Assembly: GCF_003449015.1 (NCBI RefSeq)
Contig: NZ_QRGD01000006.1
Coordinates: 62,001 to 126,000 of the forward strand
From: Aureibaculum luteum
GTDB taxonomy: Bacteria > Bacteroidota > Bacteroidia > Flavobacteriales > Flavobacteriaceae
Direction of reading: 5' to 3'
DNA length: 64,000 nt
A program made the translations under genes and the position numbers. A model generated the notes under the pieces. That model worked only from the letters and a program-made list of their open reading frames with translations, searched no databases and was not told where the DNA came from. Position 1 is the stretch's first letter, and each line of letters begins with the position of its first letter. Shown one piece after another: positions 26,225 to 38,113 of the stretch.

Positions 26225-27523
26225 TTAAGTTTTTATCAGTTTAAAACGGGCTGTTTTATTATCAATATTTAGTTGCAACCAATACACTCCTGATGATAAA
26301 AATGATAAATCAATTTCTGCTTTTGATTTCTTAGTGGCATTACCATCTTCAAAAACCATTCTACCTGTTACGTCAAAACATTTTATTACTAACACCTCAT
26401 TATCCAAAAAAGAAGTCTCAATTGCAATTTTATCTAAAAAAGGATTAGGATAGACTTTCACTTTGTTAAGTAGCTCATCATCTATACCTAATGCCACACA
26501 ACCGCTAAGAATACCATCAACTTCCGTTCTAATAGTTGGTAACATATCATAAACCTTTTGCCCAGGACATTCTGTACTACCACCATCTCTGTGCCCAGAG
26601 ATTGTTTGTATATACGATCCTGACGAAGCATGATACTTTGTTGCGATAGGATCTATACCTTTTACACAGGCTTTCCATACCAACAAATTTTTAAGACTAT
26701 TAATCATTGCGGTTTCTGGGGTAACCGTAGTGTAGGTTCCCATCAAAGACATCCCTGAAGTTCCACCATTATGCCCTGAAAAATGAGCTCCTGTCGTATC
26801 ATCTTCTCTCCCTTCATAAACATTCCCTTCTTTATCCAGTAAAAAATTATATCCCACATCTGACCAACCGTTAGTATTTACATGATAATTCCAGATAGAA
26901 CGTACCACTGCAGCCCAATCTGAAGAGGTATTTGCTCCTGCCGTATGATGTACTATTAAAAACTTAACATCTGTAGAACTTGGGTTCGAATTTGGTGGAC
27001 AATCATTATTGGGACACCAAGAAGCTCTTGTTATTACTGTTGGAGCGGCACAATTACAAGAGGCCAATGTTTTCGTTTTGACAGTATTTAAATTACCACT
27101 TTTCTTTTGTGCTTTCGTTTCTAAAAACGCTGTTTCATAGGGATAATAAAAATTGAATTTTATATCATCTAGCGTTGCCTGCTCCTTCAAAATTATTTTT
27201 ACTTGCGTTTGCTCACTCTTAACATCCAGATAGGCCATGGCATGATACTTATTGACTTCAAAATTGTTTTCATCAACAGGAAACAACTGCCATTCATTAT
27301 TAATATCCTTATAATAAACAGCTTCAATGGCTTTAGAAATAGCATTACCTGAAACGCGAATAGAAAAAGCTATAAAAGGATTATTGGGAATCTGTTCTAC
27401 TTTTAAAACATCTGACACATAAGTTTGTTGAAACTGTTTTTCAACCTTAAGCAAGGTCGTTCTAGATTCTTGAGCAATCAAAACAAAACCAAACAAGTAA
27501 AATAAGAGTACTATTTTTTTCAT
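26225..27523 (-). CDS. Secreted PGRP-type N-acetylmuramoyl-L-alanine amidase with T9SS sorting domain
   Basis: A 432-residue protein: signal peptide (about 1-17), a beta-rich N-terminal region, a PGRP/amidase_2 domain (about 165-335), and a C-terminal type A T9SS sorting domain (about 355-432, 'VYPNPFLDKIAIE', 'SGVYWLQL', ending 'FKLIKT'). Zinc ligands are likely His in 'LIVHHTAGA' and the His and Cys in 'SGHRDGGSTECPG'. The enzyme should cut the bond between muramic acid and L-Ala in peptidoglycan. The tail predicts export to the cell surface or medium by the gliding-associated secretion system. Confidence 0.92.
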   Translation of the reverse strand: MKKIVLLFYLFGFVLIAQESRTTLLKVEKQFQQTYVSDVLKVEQIPNNPFIAFSIRVSGNAISKAIEAVYYKDINNEWQLFPVDENNFEVNKYHAMAYLDVKSEQTQVKIILKEQATLDDIKFNFYYPYETAFLETKAQKKSGNLNTVKTKTLASCNCAAPTVITRASWCPNNDCPPNSNPSSTDVKFLIVHHTAGANTSSDWAAVVRSIWNYHVNTNGWSDVGYNFLLDKEGNVYEGREDDTTGAHFSGHNGGTSGMSLMGTYTTVTPETAMINSLKNLLVWKACVKGIDPIATKYHASSGSYIQTISGHRDGGSTECPGQKVYDMLPTIRTEVDGILSGCVALGIDDELLNKVKVYPNPFLDKIAIETSFLDNEVLVIKCFDVTGRMVFEDGNATKKSKAEIDLSFLSSGVYWLQLNIDNKTARFKLIKT

Positions 27524-27574
27524 AAAACGAAGATATAAAATATATCTAGAAAGCCTAATTAGTTTATAAATTCT

Positions 27575-27582
27575 TATTTTTG
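27575..27582 (+). promoter_or_regulatory. TAnnTTTG -7 box of the kynurenine operon
   Basis: TATTTTTG lies 22 bases before the TTG start of kynureninase. It matches the Bacteroidota -7 consensus. No good -33 TTG is seen, so the site is only suggested. Confidence 0.4.
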
Positions 27583-27604
27583 TTTAAATCATAAAACTAC
27601 AACC

Positions 27605-28876
27605 TTGTCAGATTATCAATTAGGATTAGAATATGCTAAAACGCAAGATCAGTCAGATGATTTATCTGCGTATCGAAATCAATTTCACATTCCAAAAGAC
27701 ACAAACGGAAACGACCTCATTTATTTTACAGGGAACTCTTTAGGATTACAACCAAAATCAACCATGTCTTATGTTGAAGAAGAACTTAAAGCATGGGCTG
27801 AACTAGGTGTTGAAGGGCATACTGAAGGTAAGCATCCATGGTTACATTACCATGAATTTTTAACTGAAAATATGGCAAATATTGTAGGTGCAAAACCCAT
27901 AGAAGTTATCGTGATGAATACGTTAACAGCAAATCTGCATTTTATGATGGTTTCCTTTTATAAACCCACAAAAACGAAATATAAAATAGTAATTGAAGCA
28001 GATGCTTTTCCCTCTGATAAGTTTGCCGTAGAATCGCAATTGCGACATCACGGATTTGATGAAAAAGATGGTATAATTTTATGGAAGCCACGCAAAGGAA
28101 ATGAATTGGCTAGGTATGAAGATTTAGAAGCTATTTTCGACCTATATGGTGATGAAATAGCTTTGACATTAATTGGTGGCGTTAATTATTATACAGGACA
28201 GTATTTTGATTTAAAAAGAATTACATCCTTAGCTCATTTTCACGATTCCATGGTTGGTTTTGACTGTGCCCATGGTGCTGGTAATGTAAAATTAAACCTA
28301 CATGATTCTGGTGCTGATTTTGCCGTTTGGTGTACTTACAAATATTTAAACTCAGGCCCGGGAAGTCTCGCTGGCTGTTTTGTACACGAACGTCATGCCA
28401 ATGATAGAGAGTTAAACCGTTTTACAGGCTGGTGGAGCCATAACAAAGAAACACGTTTTAATATGCGTGATGAATTTGATCAATTACCTGGAGCTGAAGG
28501 TTGGCAATTAAGCAATCCTCCCATTTTATCTATGGCAGCTATTAGAGCCTCTTTAGATATGTTTGCCGAAGTAGGAATGGATAGATTGGTTGAAAAATCG
28601 AAAAAACTAACAGGCTATTTTGAATTTTTAATTGAACAATTAAACAATCCAAATATAAAAATTATAACACCAAAAGATCCCTATGAACGCGGGTGTCAAC
28701 TATCCATTCAGGTATTAAATGTAGACAAAAAATTGCATCATAAACTCACAGAGAGTGGTGTTGTAAGTGACTGGAGAGAGCCAGATGTTATACGCTGTGC
28801 CCCCGTTCCGTTATACAATACATATCTAGATGTATATACTATGGTTGAAAAATTGAAAGAGATACTAAATGACTAA
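27605..28876 (+). CDS. kynU: Kynureninase
   Basis: A 423-residue PLP enzyme that splits kynurenine or 3-hydroxykynurenine into (3-hydroxy)anthranilate and alanine. Lys246 in 'WCTYKYLNSGPG' holds PLP and Asp220 in 'FDCAHGAGN' pairs with the ring nitrogen. 'FTGNSLGLQP' and 'FTGWWSHN' are family motifs. The start is TTG: the frame has no ATG upstream and the N-terminus 'SDYQLGLEYAK' fits the family length. It overlaps the kynurenine monooxygenase gene by 8 bases and leads the catabolic operon. Confidence 0.95.
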   Translation: MSDYQLGLEYAKTQDQSDDLSAYRNQFHIPKDTNGNDLIYFTGNSLGLQPKSTMSYVEEELKAWAELGVEGHTEGKHPWLHYHEFLTENMANIVGAKPIEVIVMNTLTANLHFMMVSFYKPTKTKYKIVIEADAFPSDKFAVESQLRHHGFDEKDGIILWKPRKGNELARYEDLEAIFDLYGDEIALTLIGGVNYYTGQYFDLKRITSLAHFHDSMVGFDCAHGAGNVKLNLHDSGADFAVWCTYKYLNSGPGSLAGCFVHERHANDRELNRFTGWWSHNKETRFNMRDEFDQLPGAEGWQLSNPPILSMAAIRASLDMFAEVGMDRLVEKSKKLTGYFEFLIEQLNNPNIKIITPKDPYERGCQLSIQVLNVDKKLHHKLTESGVVSDWREPDVIRCAPVPLYNTYLDVYTMVEKLKEILND

Positions 28877-30278
28877 AAAAAATAACATACTCATAGTAGG
28901 TGCTGGACTTTGTGGTTCATTACTCGCCTTACGCTTAGGACAACGCGGCTATAACATTAGTGTTTATGAAAAACGACCCGATTTACGTAAAGTTGATATC
29001 AGTGCAGGACGCTCCATCAATCTTGCTTTTTCAGATAGAGGTATAAAAGCAATGAAATTGGTGGGTTTAGAAGAAAAGGTTAAACCGCTATGCATCCCAA
29101 TGAATGGTAGAATGTTGCACGATGTAGCAGGAAATACTGTTTTAGCACCCTATAGCGGTAGAGAACATGAATATATCAATTCCATTTCTCGGGGTGATTT
29201 AAATGCCTTGTTACTCGATGAAGCTGAAGCATTACCTAACGTAACCATCTATTTTAATCATAAATCTACTGAGGTTGATTTTGAAAATTCCATAGCTCAT
29301 TTTTACCAATATGAAACAAAATCTGAGGTTTCGAAAAAAGCAGATATCATTTTTGGAACGGACGGTGCAGGTTCTTCTTTACGAAAAAGTTACTATTTAG
29401 GTAAAAAATTCTTATTCAGTTTTAGCCAAGATTATTTGACGCACGGCTATAAAGAATTAAGTATTCTACCTGCCAAAAATGGTGGCTACAAAGCTTTTAA
29501 AAATGCCTTACACATTTGGGGAAGAGGCGATTTTATGCTTATTGCATTACCCAATTTAGATGGTAGTTTTACGGTAACCTTATTTTTAAGTTACTCGGAA
29601 GGCGAATACAATTTTAACAACTTAACAACTAAAGAGAAAGTACTAGAATTCTTTACAACATACTTTAAAGACGCCTTGGAATTGATGCCAAATCTCATTG
29701 ATGATTTCTTTGAAAATCCTACATCACCTTTAGGTACGGTAAAATGTTCTCCTTGGCATTATAAAGGAAATACCTTATTAATGGGAGATTCTGCTCATGC
29801 GATTGTTCCGTTTTACGGTCAAGGAATGAATGCTTCTTTTGAGGATGTGGTTGAATTTGATAAATACCTTGATGATGCACAAGATTGGGAAAGTATTTTT
29901 AAAGCCTTTGAAAAATCGCGAAAAATAGATACCGATGCCATTGCTGATTTAGCCATAGATAATTTTCATGAAATGAAAGGTCACGTAAACAACGCTATCT
30001 TTAGAGAAAAGCGTAATTTAGAAATGGCCTTAGAAAAAAACTTTCCAACTGAATATTCTTCAAAATATTCATTAGTTACTTTTAATGAAAATATCGGATA
30101 TTATAAAGCGATGACCCAAGGAAGAGCACAAGATAAGGCGATGTTAAATATGATTGCAGATCATGACATTTCAATATCCGAAAAAACCTCTAAAGAAGAG
30201 TTAGCAATAATTTTAAAAAAGGTACAAACTGAAACAGAAAACATTTTAGAAGAAGACAGGATTGCAAAAAACATGTAA
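28869..30278 (+). CDS. kmo: Kynurenine 3-monooxygenase
   Basis: A 469-residue FAD monooxygenase with 'ILIVGAGLCGSLLALRLGQ' (FAD Rossmann), 'DGAGSSLRKS' and the second FAD motif 'LLMGDSAHAIVPFYGQGMN'. It hydroxylates kynurenine to 3-hydroxykynurenine with NADPH and oxygen. The last part is hydrophilic, whereas the mitochondrial enzymes have a membrane anchor there. It overlaps kynU, and its stop codon is followed at once by a paired hairpin repeat that fills the gap to the next gene. Confidence 0.94.
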   Translation: MTKKNNILIVGAGLCGSLLALRLGQRGYNISVYEKRPDLRKVDISAGRSINLAFSDRGIKAMKLVGLEEKVKPLCIPMNGRMLHDVAGNTVLAPYSGREHEYINSISRGDLNALLLDEAEALPNVTIYFNHKSTEVDFENSIAHFYQYETKSEVSKKADIIFGTDGAGSSLRKSYYLGKKFLFSFSQDYLTHGYKELSILPAKNGGYKAFKNALHIWGRGDFMLIALPNLDGSFTVTLFLSYSEGEYNFNNLTTKEKVLEFFTTYFKDALELMPNLIDDFFENPTSPLGTVKCSPWHYKGNTLLMGDSAHAIVPFYGQGMNASFEDVVEFDKYLDDAQDWESIFKAFEKSRKIDTDAIADLAIDNFHEMKGHVNNAIFREKRNLEMALEKNFPTEYSSKYSLVTFNENIGYYKAMTQGRAQDKAMLNMIADHDISISEKTSKEELAIILKKVQTETENILEEDRIAKNM

Positions 30279-30426
30279 AATCCCACCCCGACCCTCCCAA
30301 AGGGAGGGGGATTTAAACGCAAAATTTCCCTATATTTATGTTTAAAATATTAATTCAACAATAAAAACATTCTTAACCACCCAGTTAGGAGTTCCTTCCC
30401 TTCGGGAAGGCTAGGATGGGATTTTA
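30277..30426. repeat. REPIN-like paired hairpin element 1
   Basis: The outer ends AAAATCCCA (30277-30285) and TGGGATTTT (30417-30425) are perfect inverted repeats. Each arm forms its own hairpin: CCCTCCC-AAA-GGGAGGG (30292-30308) and CCTTCCC-TTC-GGGAAGG (30394-30410). The element fills the gap from the kmo stop codon to the deaminase start. The right arm is nearly identical, inverted, to the left arm of element 3. Confidence 0.75.
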
Positions 30427-30427
30427 T

Positions 30428-30829
30428 ATGGATAACAAAGTAACACCTCGAGGAGCATACCCACATACCAAGCGTGTAGGTGATTTTATATTCGTATCTG
30501 GTACCAGTTCAAGAAGACCAGACAATACCATTGCTGGTGTTGATATTATTGACGAAATGGGTACAAAACACCTCAACATTGAAGTTCAAACCCGTGAAGT
30601 ACTAAAAAACATTGAACGAAATTTAGCCAATGAAGGTGCTACTTTAAAAGATATTGTTGATGTTACTACTTTCTTAGTCAACATGAATGACTTTGCAGGT
30701 TATAATAAAGCCTATGCTGAATTTTTTAACAAAGAAACGGGACCAACCAGAACAACTGTTGCTGTACATCAATTACCACATCCAGATTTAGTGGTGGAGA
30801 TTAAGGTAATGGCTTATAAAAAGATTTGA
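30428..30829 (+). CDS. 2-aminomuconate deaminase (RidA family)
   Basis: A 133-residue RidA-fold protein. '[11 protein letters not shown]', '[16 protein letters not shown]' and '[22 protein letters not shown]' match 2-aminomuconate deaminases of meta-cleavage pathways rather than the housekeeping RidA. It would release ammonia from 2-aminomuconate to give 4-oxalocrotonate. Two in-frame starts exist: an ATG at 30416 inside the repeat and the chosen ATG at 30428, just after it. With the latter, the repeat's AGGATGGGA could serve as a ribosome-binding site. Confidence 0.88.
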
Positions 30830-30860
30830 GATTTGAAATAATTACAATTGGTAGGATTGT

Positions 30861-30927
30861 CCCCTTGAGGATTAGTGAGAAACAAAATGTGTTTTGTTTT
30901 GAAGCTACCGAGCGAAGCTCATAGGGG
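30861..30927. repeat. Nested hairpin between deaminase and dehydrogenase genes
   Basis: CCCCTTGAG (30861-30869) can pair with CTCATAGGGG (30918-30927) with one bulge. Inside it a perfect 8-bp stem AAACAAAA / TTTTGTTT (30880-30899) has a 4-base loop. It differs in sequence from the other repeats of this operon but likewise occupies the gene junction. Confidence 0.55.
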
Positions 30928-30963
30928 TGTAAAACGTGAGTTTAAAAAAGAAATAAGTTAATA

Positions 30964-32406
30964 ATGACCAAAATCCTAAACTACATCAACGGAAAATTTT
31001 CGCCTCCCATTAAAGATAGATGGCTAGATAATTATTGTCCCGCCAATGGTGAAGTTTATGGACAAATTCCCAATTCAACTCAAGCAGATATAGACAATGC
31101 TGTTGAAGCTGCGAAAACAGCTTTTGATTCTTGGTCGCAAACTACATTGGACGAACGTAGTAGAATTCTCATTAAAATTTCAGAATTAATAGAAGTCAAT
31201 TTAGATCGATTTGCAGAAGCAGAGAGTAAGGATAATGGCAAACCTATCTCATTGGCAAAAACAGTAGATATTCCAAGAGCGGCGAGTAATTTTCGTTTTT
31301 TTGGAAATGCCATTACGCAGTTTGCAAGTGAGAGTCACGAGAGTGTTGGACAAAACGCCATCAATTATACCTTACGCCAACCAATTGGCGTTGTGGGTTG
31401 TATCAGTCCGTGGAACCTTCCACTCTATTTATTTACATGGAAAATTGCCCCTGCTTTAGCTGCTGGTAACTGTGTAATTGCCAAACCAAGCGAAGTCACG
31501 CCAATGACCGCTTTTTTACTTGGAGAGATACTAAATGAGGCTGGACTCCCAAAAGGGGTTTTAAATATAGTTCACGGATTAGGAACAACAACTGGGCAAG
31601 CTATTGTAGAACATCCTAAAATTAAAGCCATTTCATTTACAGGAGGTACCAAAACAGGAGCAGAAATTGCAAAAATAGCCGCTCCTATGTTTAAAAAATT
31701 ATCGTTAGAATTAGGAGGGAAAAACCCAAACATCATCTTTGCCGATTGTAATTATACGGAAATGTTAGAAACTACCGTACGCTCTTCATTTGCCAATCAA
31801 GGACAAATATGTTTATGCGGTAGTCGCATTTTTGTAGAAGCATCTATTTATGAAAAATTCAAGACGGATTTTATAAATAAAGTAAAAGCATTAAAAGTGG
31901 GACACCCTTCCAATTCTGATACGAATATTGGAGCATTGATTTCTAAAGAGCATCTTGAAAAAGTTTTAGATTATATCAACATTTCAAAATCAGAAAACGG
32001 AAATGTTTTATGTGGTGGAGAAAAGGTAACCGTCACCGATTATGAAAATGGATATTATTTGGACCCCACAGTTATTGAAATTACAACAAACGATTGTCGG
32101 ATAAATCAAGAAGAAGTATTTGGCCCTGTGATTACTATTATGCCTTTTAAAAGTGACGATGAAGCTTTACAAATGGCAAATAATGTTAAATACGGGCTAT
32201 CTGCAACTTTATGGACAAATGATTTGTCTAGAACCATGCGAATGACCAATCAGCTCGAAGCTGGAATAGTTTGGGTAAATACGTGGATGTTACGTGATTT
32301 ACGAACACCTTTTGGCGGCATAAAAGCCTCGGGAATGGGACGAGAAGGCGGATTTGAAGCCTTACGCTTTTTCACAGAAGCGAAGAATGTGTGTATAAAA
32401 TATTAG
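30964..32406 (+). CDS. 2-aminomuconate 6-semialdehyde dehydrogenase (ALDH family)
   Basis: A 480-residue NAD-dependent aldehyde dehydrogenase. Catalytic Cys283 is in 'NQGQICLCGSR', Glu249 in 'SLELGGKNP', and Asn151 in 'SPWNLP'. The latter corresponds to the Asn involved in substrate isomerisation in characterised AMSDH. It oxidises 2-aminomuconate semialdehyde to 2-aminomuconate, keeping carbon from spontaneous closure to picolinate. Its position between the deaminase and the dioxygenase supports this role over a general betaine-aldehyde type ALDH. Confidence 0.9.
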   Translation: MTKILNYINGKFSPPIKDRWLDNYCPANGEVYGQIPNSTQADIDNAVEAAKTAFDSWSQTTLDERSRILIKISELIEVNLDRFAEAESKDNGKPISLAKTVDIPRAASNFRFFGNAITQFASESHESVGQNAINYTLRQPIGVVGCISPWNLPLYLFTWKIAPALAAGNCVIAKPSEVTPMTAFLLGEILNEAGLPKGVLNIVHGLGTTTGQAIVEHPKIKAISFTGGTKTGAEIAKIAAPMFKKLSLELGGKNPNIIFADCNYTEMLETTVRSSFANQGQICLCGSRIFVEASIYEKFKTDFINKVKALKVGHPSNSDTNIGALISKEHLEKVLDYINISKSENGNVLCGGEKVTVTDYENGYYLDPTVIEITTNDCRINQEEVFGPVITIMPFKSDDEALQMANNVKYGLSATLWTNDLSRTMRMTNQLEAGIVWVNTWMLRDLRTPFGGIKASGMGREGGFEALRFFTEAKNVCIKY

Positions 32407-32507
32407 CCCATCTTCCGTCTTCCCGAAGGGAAGGAACTTGGGTGAAACTAAAAATCAAATTATTAATCTAAAATAAAACTCCTTCCCCTTGGGAAGGTTG
32501 GGATGGG
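32407..32507. repeat. REPIN-like paired hairpin element 2
   Basis: Outer ends CCCATC (32407-32412) and GATGGG (32502-32507) are inverted repeats. The arms form CTTCCC-GAA-GGGAAG (32419-32433) and CCTTCCC-CTT-GGGAAGG (32481-32497). It begins at the base after the dehydrogenase stop codon and ends within the start region of the SDR gene. Confidence 0.72.
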
Positions 32508-32508
32508 A

Positions 32509-33294
32509 ATGAACTTAAAATTAGAAAACAAAAATGCATTGGTTTGTGGTAGCACACAAGGAATTGGTAAAGCCTGTGCCATGGCATTGGCAGAATTGGG
32601 TGCTAATATTACCTTAGTGGCCAGAAATGAAGAAAAATTAAAACAGGTAGTAGCAGAATTACCAAACACCTATCAAAATCATTCGTATATCGTGGCTGAT
32701 TTTCAAAACCCTGTAGAATTAGGGCAAAAAGTAGCTCGAAAACTCGCTGAAGTTGACACTTATCACATATTAGTTAACAACACTGGGGGGCCAGCTGGAG
32801 GAGCTGCCTTATCCGCAGAGTTATCAGAATTTGAAAGTGCTTTTACACAACATTTAAAAGCGAATCATATATTGGTTCAAACAGTAGTTCCAAAAATGAA
32901 AGAAGCTGATTTTGGTAGAATTATTAACATTATTTCAACCTCAGTAAAACAACCGTTGGATGGGTTGGGCGTGAGTAATACCATTAGAGGTGCTGTTGCC
33001 AATTGGAGTAAGACCTTAGCTAATGAATTGGGAGAATATGGTATTACCGTAAATAATGTTTTACCTGGAGCAACGGCCACCACCAGATTGACTGAAATAA
33101 TCAATAATAAAGCGACTAAAACAGGCAGAAAACCTGAAGAAATTTCAAAAGCTATGAAGAATGGTATTCCTGCCAAACGTTTTGCACAACCAGGAGAAAT
33201 AGCAAATGCCGTCGCTTTTTTAGCTACGGAAGCTGCTAGTTATATCAATGGTATTAATTTACCTGTAGATGGTGGCAGAACGAAATCATTGTAA
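32509..33294 (+). CDS. SDR-family oxidoreductase of the kynurenine cluster
   Basis: An SDR of 261 residues from the ATG at 32509 (an ATG at 32503 lies in frame inside the repeat). 'CGSTQGIGKACA' binds NAD(P), 'NNTGGPAGG' replaces the usual NNAG, and 'STSVKQP' supplies Ser. The expected YxxxK segment reads 'VSNTIRGAVANWSKTLA', which lacks the catalytic Tyr and Lys spacing, so classical SDR activity is doubtful. Similar proteins are typical of Bacteroidota kynurenine clusters. Its step is unknown. Confidence 0.85.
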   Translation: MNLKLENKNALVCGSTQGIGKACAMALAELGANITLVARNEEKLKQVVAELPNTYQNHSYIVADFQNPVELGQKVARKLAEVDTYHILVNNTGGPAGGAALSAELSEFESAFTQHLKANHILVQTVVPKMKEADFGRIINIISTSVKQPLDGLGVSNTIRGAVANWSKTLANELGEYGITVNNVLPGATATTRLTEIINNKATKTGRKPEEISKAMKNGIPAKRFAQPGEIANAVAFLATEAASYINGINLPVDGGRTKSL

Positions 33295-33295
33295 T

Positions 33296-33436
33296 ATCCC
33301 ATCCTAGCCTTCCCTAAGGGAAGGGAAATTTCGATGCGAAAATTTTGTACATTTATACTTGAAAAACATTGTTTAATAACAACTCAATTTTCCCGTATTG
33401 AGTTTCTCCCCTTCGGGGAGATTAAGAGGGGCTTTT
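33296..33436. repeat. REPIN-like paired hairpin element 3
   Basis: The left arm holds CCTTCCC-TAA-GGGAAGG (33308-33324) preceded by ATCCCATCCTAG. The right arm holds CTCCCC-TTC-GGGGAG (33406-33420). The outer ends are more degraded than in elements 1 and 2. It starts at the SDR stop codon and ends four bases before the dioxygenase ATG. Confidence 0.7.
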
Positions 33437-33439
33437 ATC

Positions 33440-33973
33440 ATGAGCAAATTAGTTTCTCCTTTAAATTTTAAAGAATGGATTGAAGAAAACAGACATTTAT
33501 TAAAACCACCTGTGGGCAATAAAGTAGTCTGGAAAGATGGTGATTTTATAGTGATGGTTGTAGGAGGTCCAAACAATAGAAAAGATTATCATTACAATGA
33601 AACACCAGAATTTTTCTATCAAGTAGAAGGTGATATTGTACTAAAAATTATAGACAATGGCACTCCAAAAGATGTCCACATCAAAGAAGGTGATATTTAT
33701 TTATTACCACCAAAAGTGCCACATTCTCCTCAACGTGGTGCCAATACTGTAGGCTTGGTAATTGAATACAAACGTCCTGAAGGGATGCGAGATGCCTTAC
33801 TTTGGTTTTGCGAAAATTGTACTACCAAATTATACGAAGAAGACTTTACCGTAAAAAATATTGAAACCGATATGCCTGTAATTTTTGACACTTATTATAC
33901 GGACAAAAAGAAACGTTCGTGTCCAAATTGTGGTGAAGTTATGGAGCCACCAAAAAAAGTAAAAATAGAGTAG
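33440..33973 (+). CDS. 3-hydroxyanthranilate 3,4-dioxygenase
   Basis: A 177-residue cupin. With the ATG at 33440 the iron ligands are His51, Glu57 and His95 ('HYNETPEFFYQ', 'PPKVPHSP'), the same numbering as the well-studied Ralstonia enzyme. A longer TTG-initiated frame from 33398 would run through the repeat and is rejected. Cys124, Cys127, Cys161 and Cys164 form the C-terminal rubredoxin-like iron site of bacterial enzymes. It opens the ring of 3-hydroxyanthranilate to 2-amino-3-carboxymuconate semialdehyde. Confidence 0.95.
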   Translation: MSKLVSPLNFKEWIEENRHLLKPPVGNKVVWKDGDFIVMVVGGPNNRKDYHYNETPEFFYQVEGDIVLKIIDNGTPKDVHIKEGDIYLLPPKVPHSPQRGANTVGLVIEYKRPEGMRDALLWFCENCTTKLYEEDFTVKNIETDMPVIFDTYYTDKKKRSCPNCGEVMEPPKKVKIE

Positions 33974-33976
33974 TGG

Positions 33977-34111
33977 TAACATTAATGAGATTGCCGCGTC
34001 GCATCCATAATTACAACTTATAGATATAATTCGTTTATGCTTCTCGCAATGACAGTATTAATAAAATAATTTAACTAACATTAATAAGATTCCCGAATTC
34101 ACGGGAATGAC
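33977..34111. repeat. Second repeat family, two related modules
   Basis: Two modules each begin with TAACATTAATRAGATT (about 33977 and 34077). The first has ATTGC and GCAAT ends (about 33990 and 34046). The second contains ATTCCCG-AATTCA-CGGGAAT (34089-34108) followed by GACA. Such GATTGC/GCAATGAC and ATTCCCG/CGGGAAT palindromes are unrelated in sequence to the three GGGAAGG elements upstream. Together they fill the dioxygenase to decarboxylase gap. Confidence 0.6.
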
Positions 34112-35200
34112 ATGATGGAAAAAAAACGCAAATTACGTATTAACGGACATTCACACTTACTACCTTATCCAGAGGAAATACCTCAATACATGAAAGATAA
34201 GGGTATTTTTTGGGTAGATAAAGACCGGAAATTTATGCTTCAAAAAGATTGGAGCAGACCTGTAACCGATTCTAGTTTCTTCTTACACGAAAAATTAGCT
34301 TGGATGGAGCGTTTCAAAATAGACCATGCCGTGGTACTTAATTTGTCACAGTTATACGGAAATGGACTACGTGTTGAAGAAATGAAAAAAGCATTGCGTT
34401 TTCAAAATGATTTTAACGCTAAAATTCAACAAGAACATCCTAGTAAATTTACTTGCGGATTTGTAGTACATCCAGGTTTTGTAAAAGGTGCCTGTTGGGA
34501 AATTGAACGTTGCGTTGAACAAGGCATGCAATTGCTTTGCTTACCCACACATTATATGGATACTATTGGCACTTGGCGTTGTATTTTTGATGAAGAAAAT
34601 GAGCCTATTTTTGAATTGGCTAGTAAATTGAATTTAGCGGTGGAAATCCACCCCTATGATGGTGAAAAATTCATTAAATTAGAAAATACATCTTGGCGTT
34701 TTCATCTCATTTGGATGCTAGCTCAATGTGCTGATGCGTATCACTTTTTTACTATAAAAGGGTATCAAGAACGATTTCCAAATATGCGAACTTGCTTTGC
34801 TCATGGTGGACAGTTAGCACAAATCAACCTAGGAAGACGGATTCAAGGTTTTGATGGTAGACCTGATTTATTTGAAGGTGATTACCATCCTAGAGCTGCT
34901 GTTGGACATAAAAACATCTTTTTTGACACCCTAGTGCATGATACAGGTTCTCTGAAATTACTTATAGAAAATCAAGGAGCCAAACAAGTTTTAATTGGCC
35001 TAGACGACCCATATCCTTTAGGCGAAATGGAAAGTGTTAAACAATCTTCTTATCCCGGTAAAATTTTAGACTTGGCTATTGATAGAAATATTATTAGTGA
35101 AGCAGAAAAGGACGCTATGTGGGAAGATAATGTAATACAATGGTTGTGTGGAGATGATCAAGAGGCTAAAGATAAGTTGGTGAAGAGGATATTGAATTAA
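34112..35200 (+). CDS. 2-amino-3-carboxymuconate-6-semialdehyde decarboxylase (amidohydrolase)
   Basis: A 362-residue amidohydrolase-2 family protein. Zinc ligands are likely the two His of 'NGHSHLLP', the His in 'AVEIHPYDG' and the Asp in 'GLDDPYPLGE'. The family decarboxylates ACMS to 2-aminomuconate semialdehyde, diverting carbon from quinolinate/NAD synthesis to full catabolism. The order dioxygenase then decarboxylase is typical of kynurenine operons. An in-frame ATG at 34115 is an equally good start. The repeat upstream ends at the start codon. Confidence 0.92.
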   Translation: MMEKKRKLRINGHSHLLPYPEEIPQYMKDKGIFWVDKDRKFMLQKDWSRPVTDSSFFLHEKLAWMERFKIDHAVVLNLSQLYGNGLRVEEMKKALRFQNDFNAKIQQEHPSKFTCGFVVHPGFVKGACWEIERCVEQGMQLLCLPTHYMDTIGTWRCIFDEENEPIFELASKLNLAVEIHPYDGEKFIKLENTSWRFHLIWMLAQCADAYHFFTIKGYQERFPNMRTCFAHGGQLAQINLGRRIQGFDGRPDLFEGDYHPRAAVGHKNIFFDTLVHDTGSLKLLIENQGAKQVLIGLDDPYPLGEMESVKQSSYPGKILDLAIDRNIISEAEKDAMWEDNVIQWLCGDDQEAKDKLVKRILN

Positions 35201-35216
35201 TTTATTCAAAAAATAG

Positions 35217-35669
35217 ATGTCTTTCTTTAAAAAATTTTTTCCATACAAACCAAAAATGCCAGAGGCATTTATTGAAAAATTCATTAAAGATGCTAAATTA
35301 AGGCATCTTCAAATGGAACTTTACTATAACGAAAGAATTATTCTAACTGTCGATAGTCTAAAACATGTTCCTATATGGATTGAAAGAGGCAATGTCGATA
35401 TCGGAAATTATAAAAATGGCTATGTAGTTTTCATTTTCTTTAACAAGAATAAATTAAGCAAAAACATCTACTACCAAAATTACAAGTTATCTGAAAATTT
35501 AGAAATGACAGAATATAAAGGGAAACTAAATTTAATTTATTTACATTTTTTCAAAAGCGATACATCTTCAATCCTAATCTTGGAATATATAAAAAAGGTT
35601 GTCGATAATGTTTACAAATTAGGAAATAAAAATCCAGAGATACACTTCAACTTGAGATACTTAAATTGA
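35217..35669 (+). CDS. Hypothetical protein after the kynurenine operon
   Basis: A 150-residue, Lys- and aromatic-rich protein without a signal peptide or clear membrane helix. It starts 16 bases past the decarboxylase stop and does not overlap another gene, so it is probably real. 'RHLQMELYYNERIILTVDSLKHVPIWIERG' suggests an alternating beta pattern. No domain is recognised. Confidence 0.65.
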   Translation: MSFFKKFFPYKPKMPEAFIEKFIKDAKLRHLQMELYYNERIILTVDSLKHVPIWIERGNVDIGNYKNGYVVFIFFNKNKLSKNIYYQNYKLSENLEMTEYKGKLNLIYLHFFKSDTSSILILEYIKKVVDNVYKLGNKNPEIHFNLRYLN

Positions 35670-35700
35670 TTATCTGAGTGATTTATAGACAACAATAACC

Positions 35701-35744
35701 ACCCCACCCCGCGGGCACCCCTACTTGAAAAGGAGGGGAATTAA
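35701..35744. repeat. Solo REP-like hairpin
   Basis: A 9-bp stem with one mismatch, CCCCTACTT-GAA-AAGGAGGGG (about 35720-35740), preceded by a C-rich tract. It lies between the convergent kynurenine and tyrosine catabolic units and resembles one arm of the paired elements. Confidence 0.5.
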
Positions 35745-35776
35745 AAGTTTGAACTCTTTCTTTCGGAGTAATGATT

Positions 35777-36937
35777 TTATAAAGTTCCTCGATTGGCTTG
35801 TTCTCTTTCAATCGCTTCAAACAAAGCTTTAAAATTACCAACACCAAAAGATTGTGCTCCTTTACGCTGTATTACTTCAAAAAACATAGTAGGTCTATCC
35901 ACTACTGGTTTTGTAAACAATTGTAATAAATAACCTTCCTCATCTCTATCAATTAAAATTCCATGCTCTTTTAGCACTTCTACATCTTCATCAATTTCAC
36001 CAACACGTTCCAGCAAATCATCATAATAGGTATCTGGTACATATAGAAACTCCACACCTCTATCTCGCATTGCTCCTACTGTTTTTACAATATCATTAGT
36101 TGCTACGGCAATATGCTGAACCCCCGGTCCATTGTAAAAATCTAAATATTCTTCAATTTGCGATTTCTTTTGACCTTTGGCTGGTTCATTTATGGGGAAT
36201 TTTATTCTACCATTACCGTTTGACATTACTTTACTCATTAATGCCGTATATTCAGTTGAAATATCATCATCCGTAAAGGAGATGATTTGTGCAAAGCCCA
36301 TGGTTTTAGCATAAAAATCACACCATTGCTTCATTTCTCCCCATCCCACATTACCTACCATGTGGTCAATAAATTTTAATCCTACAGGTTCTGGGTTGTA
36401 ATGTGATTCCCATTTTTTATAGCCAGGTAAAAATAGACCCTTGTAATCTTTACGTTCTACAAATACATGAACCGTTTCACCATAGGTATAAATCCCTGAC
36501 CGAATTACAACTCCATCTTTATCTTCTTCTTTAGTGGGTTTCAAAAATGGCTTCGCTCCTCTTTTGGTAGTTTCATCAAAAGCTTTAGTCGCATCATCAA
36601 CCCAAAGAGCTACTACTTTCACACCATCACCATGCTCATTTATATGTTCATTAATTACGCCACCCTTAACCAACGAAGTAGTTAACACCAACCTGATCTT
36701 ATCTTGTTTTAGCACATATGAAACACGGTCTTTTACACCTGTTTCTAATCCCGCATAAGCTTCTGATTGAAACCCGAATGCTGTTTTATAGAAGTGTGCC
36801 GATTGCTTGGCATTCCCCACATATAATTCTACATAATCGGTACCCAGTAAAGGCAAAAAATCTTCGGCATCTTCAAATATTTTTTTGATACCATATTCTG
36901 TATTTTGTAAATCTTTTAAATTCTTTATATCTGCCAT
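35777..36937 (-). CDS. hppD: 4-hydroxyphenylpyruvate dioxygenase
   Basis: A 386-residue Fe(II) dioxygenase with two VOC-type halves. Iron ligands are His192 ('FIDHMVGNVG'), His275 ('GVQHIAVATND') and Glu354 ('MFFEVIQRKG'). The C-terminal 'GNFKALFEAIEREQANRGTL' forms the helix that closes the active site. It converts 4-hydroxyphenylpyruvate to homogentisate in tyrosine degradation. It follows homogentisate dioxygenase by 9 bases, so the two are an operon. It can also feed pyomelanin or quinone routes. Confidence 0.96.
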   Translation of the reverse strand: MADIKNLKDLQNTEYGIKKIFEDAEDFLPLLGTDYVELYVGNAKQSAHFYKTAFGFQSEAYAGLETGVKDRVSYVLKQDKIRLVLTTSLVKGGVINEHINEHGDGVKVVALWVDDATKAFDETTKRGAKPFLKPTKEEDKDGVVIRSGIYTYGETVHVFVERKDYKGLFLPGYKKWESHYNPEPVGLKFIDHMVGNVGWGEMKQWCDFYAKTMGFAQIISFTDDDISTEYTALMSKVMSNGNGRIKFPINEPAKGQKKSQIEEYLDFYNGPGVQHIAVATNDIVKTVGAMRDRGVEFLYVPDTYYDDLLERVGEIDEDVEVLKEHGILIDRDEEGYLLQLFTKPVVDRPTMFFEVIQRKGAQSFGVGNFKALFEAIEREQANRGTL

Positions 36938-36946
36938 GTTTTCTTT

Positions 36947-38113
36947 TTAATGATTTTCATCTAGCCAAGAGGTGTGATAATCTCCTGTATCAATTTTTAA
37001 TGCTTCTTCTGTAACCATGAGCGGTTTAAAAGTATCAACCATAACTGCCAATTCTTCTGTTTTGGTTTGACCAACACTACGTTCCATTGCTCCTGGGTGC
37101 GGACCATGAGGAATTCCTGACGGATGCAACGTAATTTGACCAATGCCAATATTATTTCTACTCATAAAATCGCCATCAACATAATACAGCACCTCATCAG
37201 AATCAATATTACTATGATTATAAGGAGCTGGAATAGATTGAGGATGATAATCATACAATCTAGGCACAAACGAACAGATTACAAAAGCACTAGTTTCAAA
37301 AGTTTGGTGAACAGGTGGCGGCTGATGAATTCGCCCAGTAATTGGCTCAAAATCATGGATTGACAATTTATAAGGATAATTATAACCATCCCAACCCACA
37401 ACACTAAAGGGATGACCTACATACACATATTCGTGTATCATATCTTGTTTTTTCACTTTGAGGATAAACTCTCCTTTATCCGAAAAAGTTTCCAGTTCAC
37501 TTGGTGGATGCATATCTCGTTCACAAAAAGGAGAATGCTCTAAATGTTGTCCAAACCAGTTTCGATAACGTTTTGGTGTATAAATAGGATGCTTAGACTC
37601 CACAATAAACAATCTATTATCTTCAGTATCAAATTCAATTTGGTAAATCATTCCTCTTGGAATTACCAGGTAATCGCCATATTCAAAATCAATATTCCCA
37701 AGAAATGTTCGTAATTTTCCAGACCCCTTATGAATAAACAATACTTCATCTGAATCGGTATTTTTATAAAAATAATCTCTTACTGATTTTTGTGGAGCGG
37801 CTAATGCAATATAGCAATCACTATTAGCTAACATTATTTTTCGACTCTCTAAAAAATCGGCTGTTGCTTTAACATTAAAACCATTTAAACTCAATGATTT
37901 CATATTTTTTTCCACAGCTATTTTTGGAGAAACATCATAAGATTTCAATACTGCTTTAACTTGCGTTGGTCTATGTGTATGGTACAACAAAGATGACATT
38001 CCATCAAAACCAATTGTTCCGAAAAGTTCTTCGTAATAGAAATCACCTGAATCGTTCTTAAAAATGGTGTGTCTTTTAGGAGGTATTTTACCCAATTTAT
38101 GATATCTAGGCAT
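36947..38113 (-). CDS. hmgA: Homogentisate 1,2-dioxygenase
   Basis: A 388-residue cupin-type dioxygenase that opens homogentisate to maleylacetoacetate. The His-rich region 'HDFEPITGRIHQPPPVHQTF' and 'HPSGIPHGPHPGAMERS' contain the iron ligands. The protein is shorter than the 430-440 residue human/proteobacterial type, as is usual for the bacterial short class. It is the first gene of the tyrosine unit, with a long leader holding palindromes. Fumarylacetoacetate hydrolase is not in the window. Confidence 0.92.
   Translation of the reverse strand: MPRYHKLGKIPPKRHTIFKNDSGDFYYEELFGTIGFDGMSSLLYHTHRPTQVKAVLKSYDVSPKIAVEKNMKSLSLNGFNVKATADFLESRKIMLANSDCYIALAAPQKSVRDYFYKNTDSDEVLFIHKGSGKLRTFLGNIDFEYGDYLVIPRGMIYQIEFDTEDNRLFIVESKHPIYTPKRYRNWFGQHLEHSPFCERDMHPPSELETFSDKGEFILKVKKQDMIHEYVYVGHPFSVVGWDGYNYPYKLSIHDFEPITGRIHQPPPVHQTFETSAFVICSFVPRLYDYHPQSIPAPYNHSNIDSDEVLYYVDGDFMSRNNIGIGQITLHPSGIPHGPHPGAMERSVGQTKTEELAVMVDTFKPLMVTEEALKIDTGDYHTSWLDENH

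Follow-up and report, generated by a model that had tools for sequence, protein, structure and literature searches.

Paired mirror-tailed repeats at the gene junctions of an Aureibaculum luteum kynurenine operon: a probable intrastrand triplex element

The kynurenine operon of Aureibaculum luteum carries three paired-repeat elements (six arms) at the junctions between the genes for kynurenine 3-monooxygenase (KMO) and RidA, for aldehyde dehydrogenase (ALDH) and short-chain dehydrogenase (SDR), and for SDR and 3-hydroxyanthranilate dioxygenase (3-HAO). They lie in a stretch of 64,000 nucleotides (the window; G000:C45:62001-126000, contig NZ_QRGD01000006.1) from a genome whose 48 contigs total 5.1 Mb. 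Judging from their sequence, the arms are probably those of an oriented triplex-repeat element that swaps between junctions and is written in an intrastrand purine-motif DNA triplex code, of the potential intrastrand triplex (PIT/TM) class. The statistics presented here show a mirror constraint on the arms, a polarity, an exact placement, a recurrence in kynurenine (kyn) operons and the replacement of junctions between close relatives.

A preliminary description of this DNA had placed the elements at 30277-30426, 32407-32507 and 33296-33436, as inverted hairpin doublets that reach from the stop codon of one gene to the start of the following one, and the sequence bears this out. Element 1 starts at the TAA that closes KMO (30276-30278) and extends to just short of the RidA ATG at 30428. 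Element 2 follows directly on the stop codon of ALDH (32404-32406), and the SDR ATG at 32503 lies within its GGATGGG tail, while element 3 stands directly after the SDR stop 33292-33294 and ends just upstream of the 3-HAO ATG 33440. The arms, and the extra stem-loops (SL1) found 5' of two of them, are as follows.

30282..30308, - strand: arm 1L, after the KMO stop; CCCTCCC-TTT-GGGAGGG-TCG-GGGTGGG (- strand reading); mirror code 7/7 (A to T)
30368..30393, + strand: SL1 of element 1, an additional stem-loop on the 5' side of arm 1R, with ACCCA in the loop
30394..30420, + strand: arm 1R, before the RidA start; CCTTCCC-TTC-GGGAAGG-CTA-GGATGGG; mirror code 7/7
32407..32434, - strand: arm 2L, directly behind the ALDH stop codon; CCTTCCC/GGGAAGA stem, CGGA linker and AGATGGG tail (- strand reading); mirror code 7/7, with a 4-nt linker, by eye
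32481..32507, + strand: arm 2R, into the SDR start; CCTTCCC-CTT-GGGAAGG-TTG-GGATGGG; mirror code 7/7
33298..33324, - strand: arm 3L, after the SDR stop; CCTTCCC-TTA-GGGAAGG-CTA-GGATGGG (- strand reading); mirror code 7/7
33381..33404, + strand: SL1 of element 3, an additional stem-loop on the 5' side of arm 3R, with CCCG in the loop
33405..33431, + strand: arm 3R, before the 3-HAO start; TCTCCCC-TTC-GGGGAGA-TTA-AGAGGGG; mirror code 7/7

In all six arms a pyrimidine strand (Y) is followed by a 3-nt loop, a purine strand (R), a linker of 3-4 nt and a tail (R'), the R-linker-R' stretch being the same in 1R and 3L. The tail is the mirror image of R, with G answered by G and A by A or T. This feature, the most constrained of the arms, was missed in the first reading. 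Mirror repeats are distinct from both direct and inverted repeats, and a tail of this kind suits a putative third strand that runs antiparallel along the hairpin's purine strand. When the sequence rules for intrastrand triplexes were applied (order Y-R-R', antiparallel triads GGC, AAT and TAT, loops 1-6 nt long and stems 6-15 nt long, in which a single mismatch is tolerated once the stem has 7 nt or more), all six window arms qualified at 7/7 (arm 2L, with its 4-nt linker, by eye). The same three triads define intrastrand triplexes in the part of PMC4666352 on which we draw.

The shared design that had been proposed for the three elements holds for the inverted hairpin pairs. Arm 1R and the inverted arm 3L do differ at one base over 29, and pair over 40 nt at 88%, and the matching outer ends ATCCCATC/GATGGGAT fit these two arms only; the ends of the others are ATCCCACC in 1L, GCCCATC in 2L, GGATGGGAA in 2R and AGAGGGGCT in 3R, the last being a separate subtype (TCTCCCC/GGGGAGA). 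The variant in arm 2L recurs in Winogradskyella. It was considered as a descent mark of the ALDH/SDR element (CCCATCTTCCGTCTTCCC) and rejected, since the identical variant is present in loci L129 and L149 and is thus a subtype and not a junction mark; the arm matches at these two loci adjoin a gene of the 2-oxoglutarate dehydrogenase E2 type (named by eye).

In a first test of the mirror code, hairpins were taken by stem alone from about 1.1 Mb in 135 sequences (119 GTDB loci, the window and 15 others), with one tail per distinct stem and the orientation set by G content only. For 34 distinct purine stems the tails scored 0.853 as mirror images, 0.710 as direct repeats and 0.675 (sd 0.023) when swapped, with 0/5000 swaps as high. 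The 30 asymmetric stems gave 0.838, 0.675 and 0.665, respectively, and 23 of the 34 stems scored at least 0.86. The first unbiased mirror scan, in which both palindrome sides were mixed, had given a small mean difference (0.393 versus 0.331 direct, offset 3).

The second test used a broad pattern fixing purines and pyrimidines, and not the mirror, on 120 genomes of the family, one for nearly every genus. The pattern matched 47 times in 15 of these genomes, leaving 41 matches in 14 other genomes once the 6 matches of our own genome were removed. In these 41 matches the mirror code is obeyed at 159/164 free tail positions, against 97.0 with swapped tails (sd 5.8, maximum 121; 0/10000 as high), and in the 18 distinct strand pairs at 67/72 tail positions, against 36.9. 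Watson-Crick pairing is kept at 184/205 free stem positions, and the third strand is therefore constrained at least as strictly as the stem.

In some genomes an arm also lies in a reading frame. At one site at the 5' end of KMO an arm is present in 8 of 55 loci (a further match, L281, was dropped as chance-like), with five different purine strands and the mirror at 8/8 positions in seven arms and at 7/8 in one. The R/R' pairs are GGGGAAGA/AGAAGGGG (2), GGGGAGGA/AGGAGGGG (3), GGAGAGGA/AGGAGAGG, GGAAAGGA/AGGAAAGG and the one at 7/8. The KMO frame is open through the arm in the seven translated loci (KVxPxGEDLxGA); an in-frame ATG lies upstream of the arm in four of them, and the true start is ambiguous in the other three.

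Stretches such as GGGAAGGCTAGGATGGG, with four runs of at least two G, could also be taken for a two-layer G-quadruplex instead of a pair of triplex strands. We consider this most improbable, given that other subtypes with only two G-runs obey the mirror (GGGGAGATTAAGAGGGG, GGGGAAATTAAAAGGGG) and that the pyrimidine strand is also kept, as seen in the 184/205 stem pairs.

Placement was studied in a blind scan of GTDB genomes for CCTTCCCNNNGGGAAGGNTNGGATGGG, which gave at least 119 loci with at least 149 matches; the GTDB counts in this text are among the loci and matches listed, with our own calls of open reading frames (ORFs; ATG only, at least 80 aa). Start-facing tails lie within 21 nt of a start in 40 of 68 cases and stop-facing tails within 14 nt of a stop in 48 of 71. 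Among 234 mirror-tailed arms in these loci, SL1 (threshold at least 6 bp) accompanies 24/65 start-adjacent, 0/68 stop-adjacent and 4/101 other arms; for exact matches only the figures are 17/39, 0/47 and 3/51, with 3-4% in shuffled sequence. Pairs with tails outward lie between codirectional ORFs in 33 of 41 cases, and in 22 of 22 when neither tail is more than 30 nt away from an ORF end. Blind insertion of a DNA element would be expected to ignore gene direction. A simple symmetric REPIN, the doublet of repetitive extragenic palindromic (REP) sequences to which the elements had been likened, is contradicted by the one-sided SL1.

GC-rich hairpins located immediately behind stop codons could suggest intercistronic terminators or attenuators. 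We give this reading very little credit: no T-run follows the left hairpins (by eye; no terminator scan was made), and the E. coli PIT/TM elements showed neither promoter nor terminator activity in an earlier study, according to the part of PMC4666352 that cites it.

In some genomes the arms meet unusual coding sequences. At the KMO/RidA junction of L104, L115 and L147 an extra small ORF has its 3' end running into the left arm (predicted last residues HPNLPKGKE or similar), and in L088, L157 and L179 the kynureninase frame terminates within the left arm (tail TFPKGRN...), which gives the protein a C-terminal extension from the repeat. Dense runs of mirror-tailed arms (e.g. GGGGAGG-CTA-GGTGGGG) were seen in Prevotella pectinovora (L106, L109, L148 and further NZ_JXQI loci), with several of them packed into a few hundred bases and no obvious tie to single operon junctions.

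At the RNA level, RNAfold gave -50.3 kcal/mol for arm-to-arm pairing in element 1 versus -35.3 for local pairs only, -31.7 versus -28.0 in element 2 and -41.0 versus -34.7 in element 3; among 13 junctions folded, one (L157) had no gain from arm-to-arm pairing. Such pairing would join stop and start codons in the transcript, but complementary outer parts are a consequence of the inverted design and so are no proof of it. These predictions bear on a reading in which the repeats act in cis as RNA only, with an SL1-SL2 leader before starts, a hairpin after stops, the tails as part of the leader and no role for DNA structure. Orientation, exact placement, the predicted local hairpins and the arm-to-arm pairing all agree with it, and an unlisted motif is conceivable, with no match in Rfam up to E 1 over 27500-36000. 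This reading is nevertheless unlikely. The mirror covariation is not Watson-Crick and is kept better than the stem, SL1 is missing from 41 of the 65 start-side arms, and the KMO arm is within the reading frame in some genomes. Moreover, purine-motif triplexes are poor in RNA. The mirror code does not correspond to any rule of RNA pairing, so at least some of the constraint probably acts on the DNA.

An internal promoter in the SDR/3-HAO spacer was also considered. The motif TAnnTTT[GA] occurs in 10 of 12 spacers (shuffled mean 2.7) and was left unused: the rows are related, TTTA was accepted, and the arm-free junction of G011 has the box by eye. We take the motif to resemble the Bacteroidota -7 promoter box, a likeness not used as support.

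The recurrence of the arms in kyn operons extends over several genera. Three or more kyn genes were found in 15 of the 119 GTDB loci, and 23 of the 149 matches are within kyn gene blocks, in Winogradskyella (6 loci), Tenacibaculum (2 loci), Polaribacter, Bizionia, Aureibaculum and four metagenome-assembled genomes. Other recurrent neighbours are few, the largest being a fatty-acid-oxidation type enzyme (named by eye) with 6 matches. Exact arms in the 120 family genomes number five, namely three in this operon, one at the KMO/RidA junction of G149 and one elsewhere in G123. In a sample of 40 other genera, drawn from the top of 103 genomes with 3-HAO, there were 11 arms in 288 kb of kyn blocks versus 4 non-canonical ones in 506 kb of surroundings.

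Within this genome the broad pattern gave 6 matches over the whole 5.1 Mb, 5 of which are window arms, and the reversed pattern gave none. The pattern was designed from the window arms, with arm 2L outside it because of the 4-nt linker, so that their 5 matches are there by construction and the informative part is the rarity elsewhere; the operon is about 0.15% of the genome yet has 5 of the 6 matches. The arms had been described as confined to the junctions of one pathway, and what remains of this is a strong concentration, with related arms also present at other places of this genome and in further genera.

The genes of the operon, all on the + strand, are listed below with their Pfam matches.

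27605..28876, + strand: kynureninase (PF22580 KYNU_C, PF00266)
28869..30278, + strand: kynurenine 3-monooxygenase-like FAD enzyme, KMO, name inferred from the pathway (PF01494)
30428..30829, + strand: RidA-like protein (PF01042)
30964..32406, + strand: aldehyde dehydrogenase, ALDH (PF00171)
32503..33294, + strand: short-chain dehydrogenase, SDR (PF13561, PF00106)
33440..33973, + strand: 3-hydroxyanthranilate dioxygenase, 3-HAO (PF06052)
34112..35200, + strand: amidohydrolase, probably ACMSD, name inferred from the pathway (PF04909)

The same operon was compared in relatives, as the preliminary description had proposed, and arms were indeed found to be absent or junctions replaced. Among 14 genomes of the genus in which SDR was found, the junctions vary freely. 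Between our genome (G000) and G009 the seven genes are 95.7-98.4% alike (SDR 97.8%, 3-HAO 97.9%) and the junctions other than SDR/3-HAO 94-99%, whereas the SDR/3-HAO junction is only 42.1% alike (148 versus 242 bp) with a different arm subtype in each. G007 has the SDR/3-HAO junction of G000 (97.3%) and differs at ALDH/SDR (61.6%) and at RidA/ALDH (4 versus 137 bp).

A single old origin of the KMO 5' arm was rejected. On a tree of 63 KMO proteins, 13 of them included because they bear an arm somewhere, the arm needs 7 changes, at least 6 of them forced by well-supported branches, and 136 of 500 shuffles of the label are as low as 7; its history is so one of repeated gain, exchange or loss. The SDR/3-HAO junction arms likewise need 7 changes on the 3-HAO tree (62 rows, 13 positive). 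The likeness of the genes, set against the replaced junctions and the 7 changes on the trees, means therefore that junctions were exchanged separately from genes. In L088 the arms before RidA and before 3-HAO have the rare AAT loop in common, which looks as though one arm had overwritten the other by copying inside this genome.

Other junctions of the operon carry repeats of their own. The RidA/ALDH junction (window 30830-30963) holds another palindrome-bearing insert, CCCCTTGAGG...CTCATAGGGG, which is present in G000 and G009 (137 bp) and lacking in G007 (4 bp). A different repeat, AGATTCCCGAATTCACGGGAATGAC, abuts the start codon at the 3-HAO/ACMSD junction (window 33974-34111), and similar repeats stand there in G016 and G001. 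Just behind the operon, positions 35777-38113 of the window contain two opposite-strand genes, the second of which (36947-38113) is by eye like the homogentisate dioxygenase-like neighbour of the arms in L136 and L185.

The turnover of the junctions, together with the inverted palindromes, would also agree with classical REPINs, that is, REP doublets mobilised as single-stranded DNA by a REP-associated tyrosine transposase (RAYT) or an IS200-like TnpA acting in trans. Our genome has PF01797 matches at three places. One of these genes (G000:C12:282591; L046:4092-4541) lies inside a nest of mirror-tailed palindromes, with 4 arms around it (GGAAAGGG-CTG-GGGATAGG four times; also GGAGGGGG-CTA-GGGGGAGG, by eye), and a PF01797 match is present in 8 of 10 genomes of the genus with the palindrome versus 3 of 7 without. 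The palindromes of the nest are related to, but different from, the window arms, and the protein scores 72.9 bits as IS200 (cut-off 55) and 22.4 as REP transposase (cut-off 80). The search for a RAYT thus returned an IS200-type TnpA in a palindrome nest, below the REP-transposase cut-off.

PF01797 presence tracks the arms poorly, as G016 with 11 palindromes of the arm type has no PF01797 match, nor has G003 with 3 (genome 68% complete). With the best candidate being an IS200 TnpA, the RAYT link is weakened; a link between this TnpA and the arms is possible. The high copy number expected of REPINs was lacking too: the genome-wide search found related copies elsewhere, with only 4 exact palindromes and the 6 broad-pattern matches. 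No GT[AG]G guide was seen by eye at the foot of the six window stems, and the two halves are not equivalent and are oriented with the genes. Taken together, these observations make a REPIN identity improbable, and this claim of the preliminary description is not upheld. The L046 region (G000:C12:278500-286000) has at least two types of mirror-tailed palindrome and several other tandem palindromes, and in G009 the same place has other copy numbers. When 1.157 Mb of the genome, in stretches picked to include earlier matches, was scanned under strict rules, 13 distinct arms were found (5 in the window, 4 around one transposase gene), and none in the locally shuffled control. With a direct instead of a mirror repeat as control code, 16 rows were obtained versus 23, because G-rich near-symmetric stems satisfy both codes.

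On the triplex reading, the Y, R and R' strands of each arm would fold as a triplex in single-stranded DNA. Two inverted arms with their tails outward make up an element that fills the gap between the stop codon of one gene and the start codon of the next, both genes running in the same direction, and the triplex structure may enable copying or exchange of the unit between junctions, via recombination or some recombinase. In the mRNA, the hairpins after the stop and before the start might shield the end of the upstream message and separate the two cistrons, a role we hold to be rather doubtful. The single retained orientation could be explained by the transcript being also used, in the form of these mRNA hairpins.

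Several observations weigh against this reading. In the first test 11 of the 34 stems do not exceed 0.71, and a number of these are chance hairpins in genes. The polarity counts come from loci selected by one arm type and from ATG-only ORF calls; 22 of the 149 matches are inside a called ORF, and 8 of the 41 tail-out pairs have convergent or divergent neighbours, one tail or both lying over 30 nt away from an ORF end in each of these 8. The recurrence is patchy, with arms in the kyn block in 4 of 40 other genera (one of them marginal) and only 1 of the 41 non-own broad-pattern matches in a kyn operon. Seven of the 14 genus genomes with SDR have no arm at these junctions (G002, G004, G005, G013, G006, G008 and G011), and no recombinase was identified for the arms.

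Potential intrastrand triplexes are already known as a class. Genome counts of them are long-standing, with little evidence so far of selection on the third strand. In the open-licence papers searched we found neither a many-sequence family whose three strands change jointly, nor such elements placed from stop to start, polar or recurring in kyn operons, nor examples from Flavobacteria. We are tempted to suggest, as a tentative possibility, that Bacteroidota have a natural three-strand DNA code under selection, made of stop-to-start elements in which Y, R and R' co-vary, even in reading frames, and which behave as oriented, exchangeable cassettes with the kyn operon as a preferred home. The many stems that keep the third-strand code jointly make a natural triplex directly testable, and the fit to stop and start codons with one-way orientation offers a new handle on how cistrons are divided in Bacteroidota operons.

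Among known systems, REPINs and the REP-RAYT systems resemble the arms as short inverted palindrome doublets in extragenic DNA with turnover between relatives, and frame-preserving REP insertions have been reported for them, as far as the parts of PMC3116915 and PMC6006769 used here go. The arms differ in their low copy number, asymmetric halves and mirror tail, without a GTRG foot or an identified cognate RAYT. The TnpA_Y1 subclass 2.6 of Bacteroidetes, as described in the relevant part of PMC6006769, is alike in having odd palindromes near a Y1 transposase and copies elsewhere in the genome. The C12 gene differs from it in the motif YIKNQ (YIH[QN]NP in the subclass) and in scoring as IS200, the flanking structures being compared by description only.

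The closest known system is perhaps TM_ECO (Holder et al. 2015, PMC4666352), whose main text has no "Bacteroid-" or "Flavobacter-". In the sections of that paper considered here, it has the order Y, loop of at least 3, R, 3-nt second loop and R', uses the triads GGC, AAT and TAT, and is mostly intergenic, with some inverted pairs and local variation between strains. It is described there as one conserved 9-nt sequence with no strand bias and no fixed distance to genes, and its consensus CCCTCNCCC...GGGNGAGGG is not that of the window arms, which have 7-nt stems of other sequence. Unlike TM_ECO, the arms have many stems with joint change; their elements sit against stop and start codons, follow the orientation of the genes and recur in a single operon.

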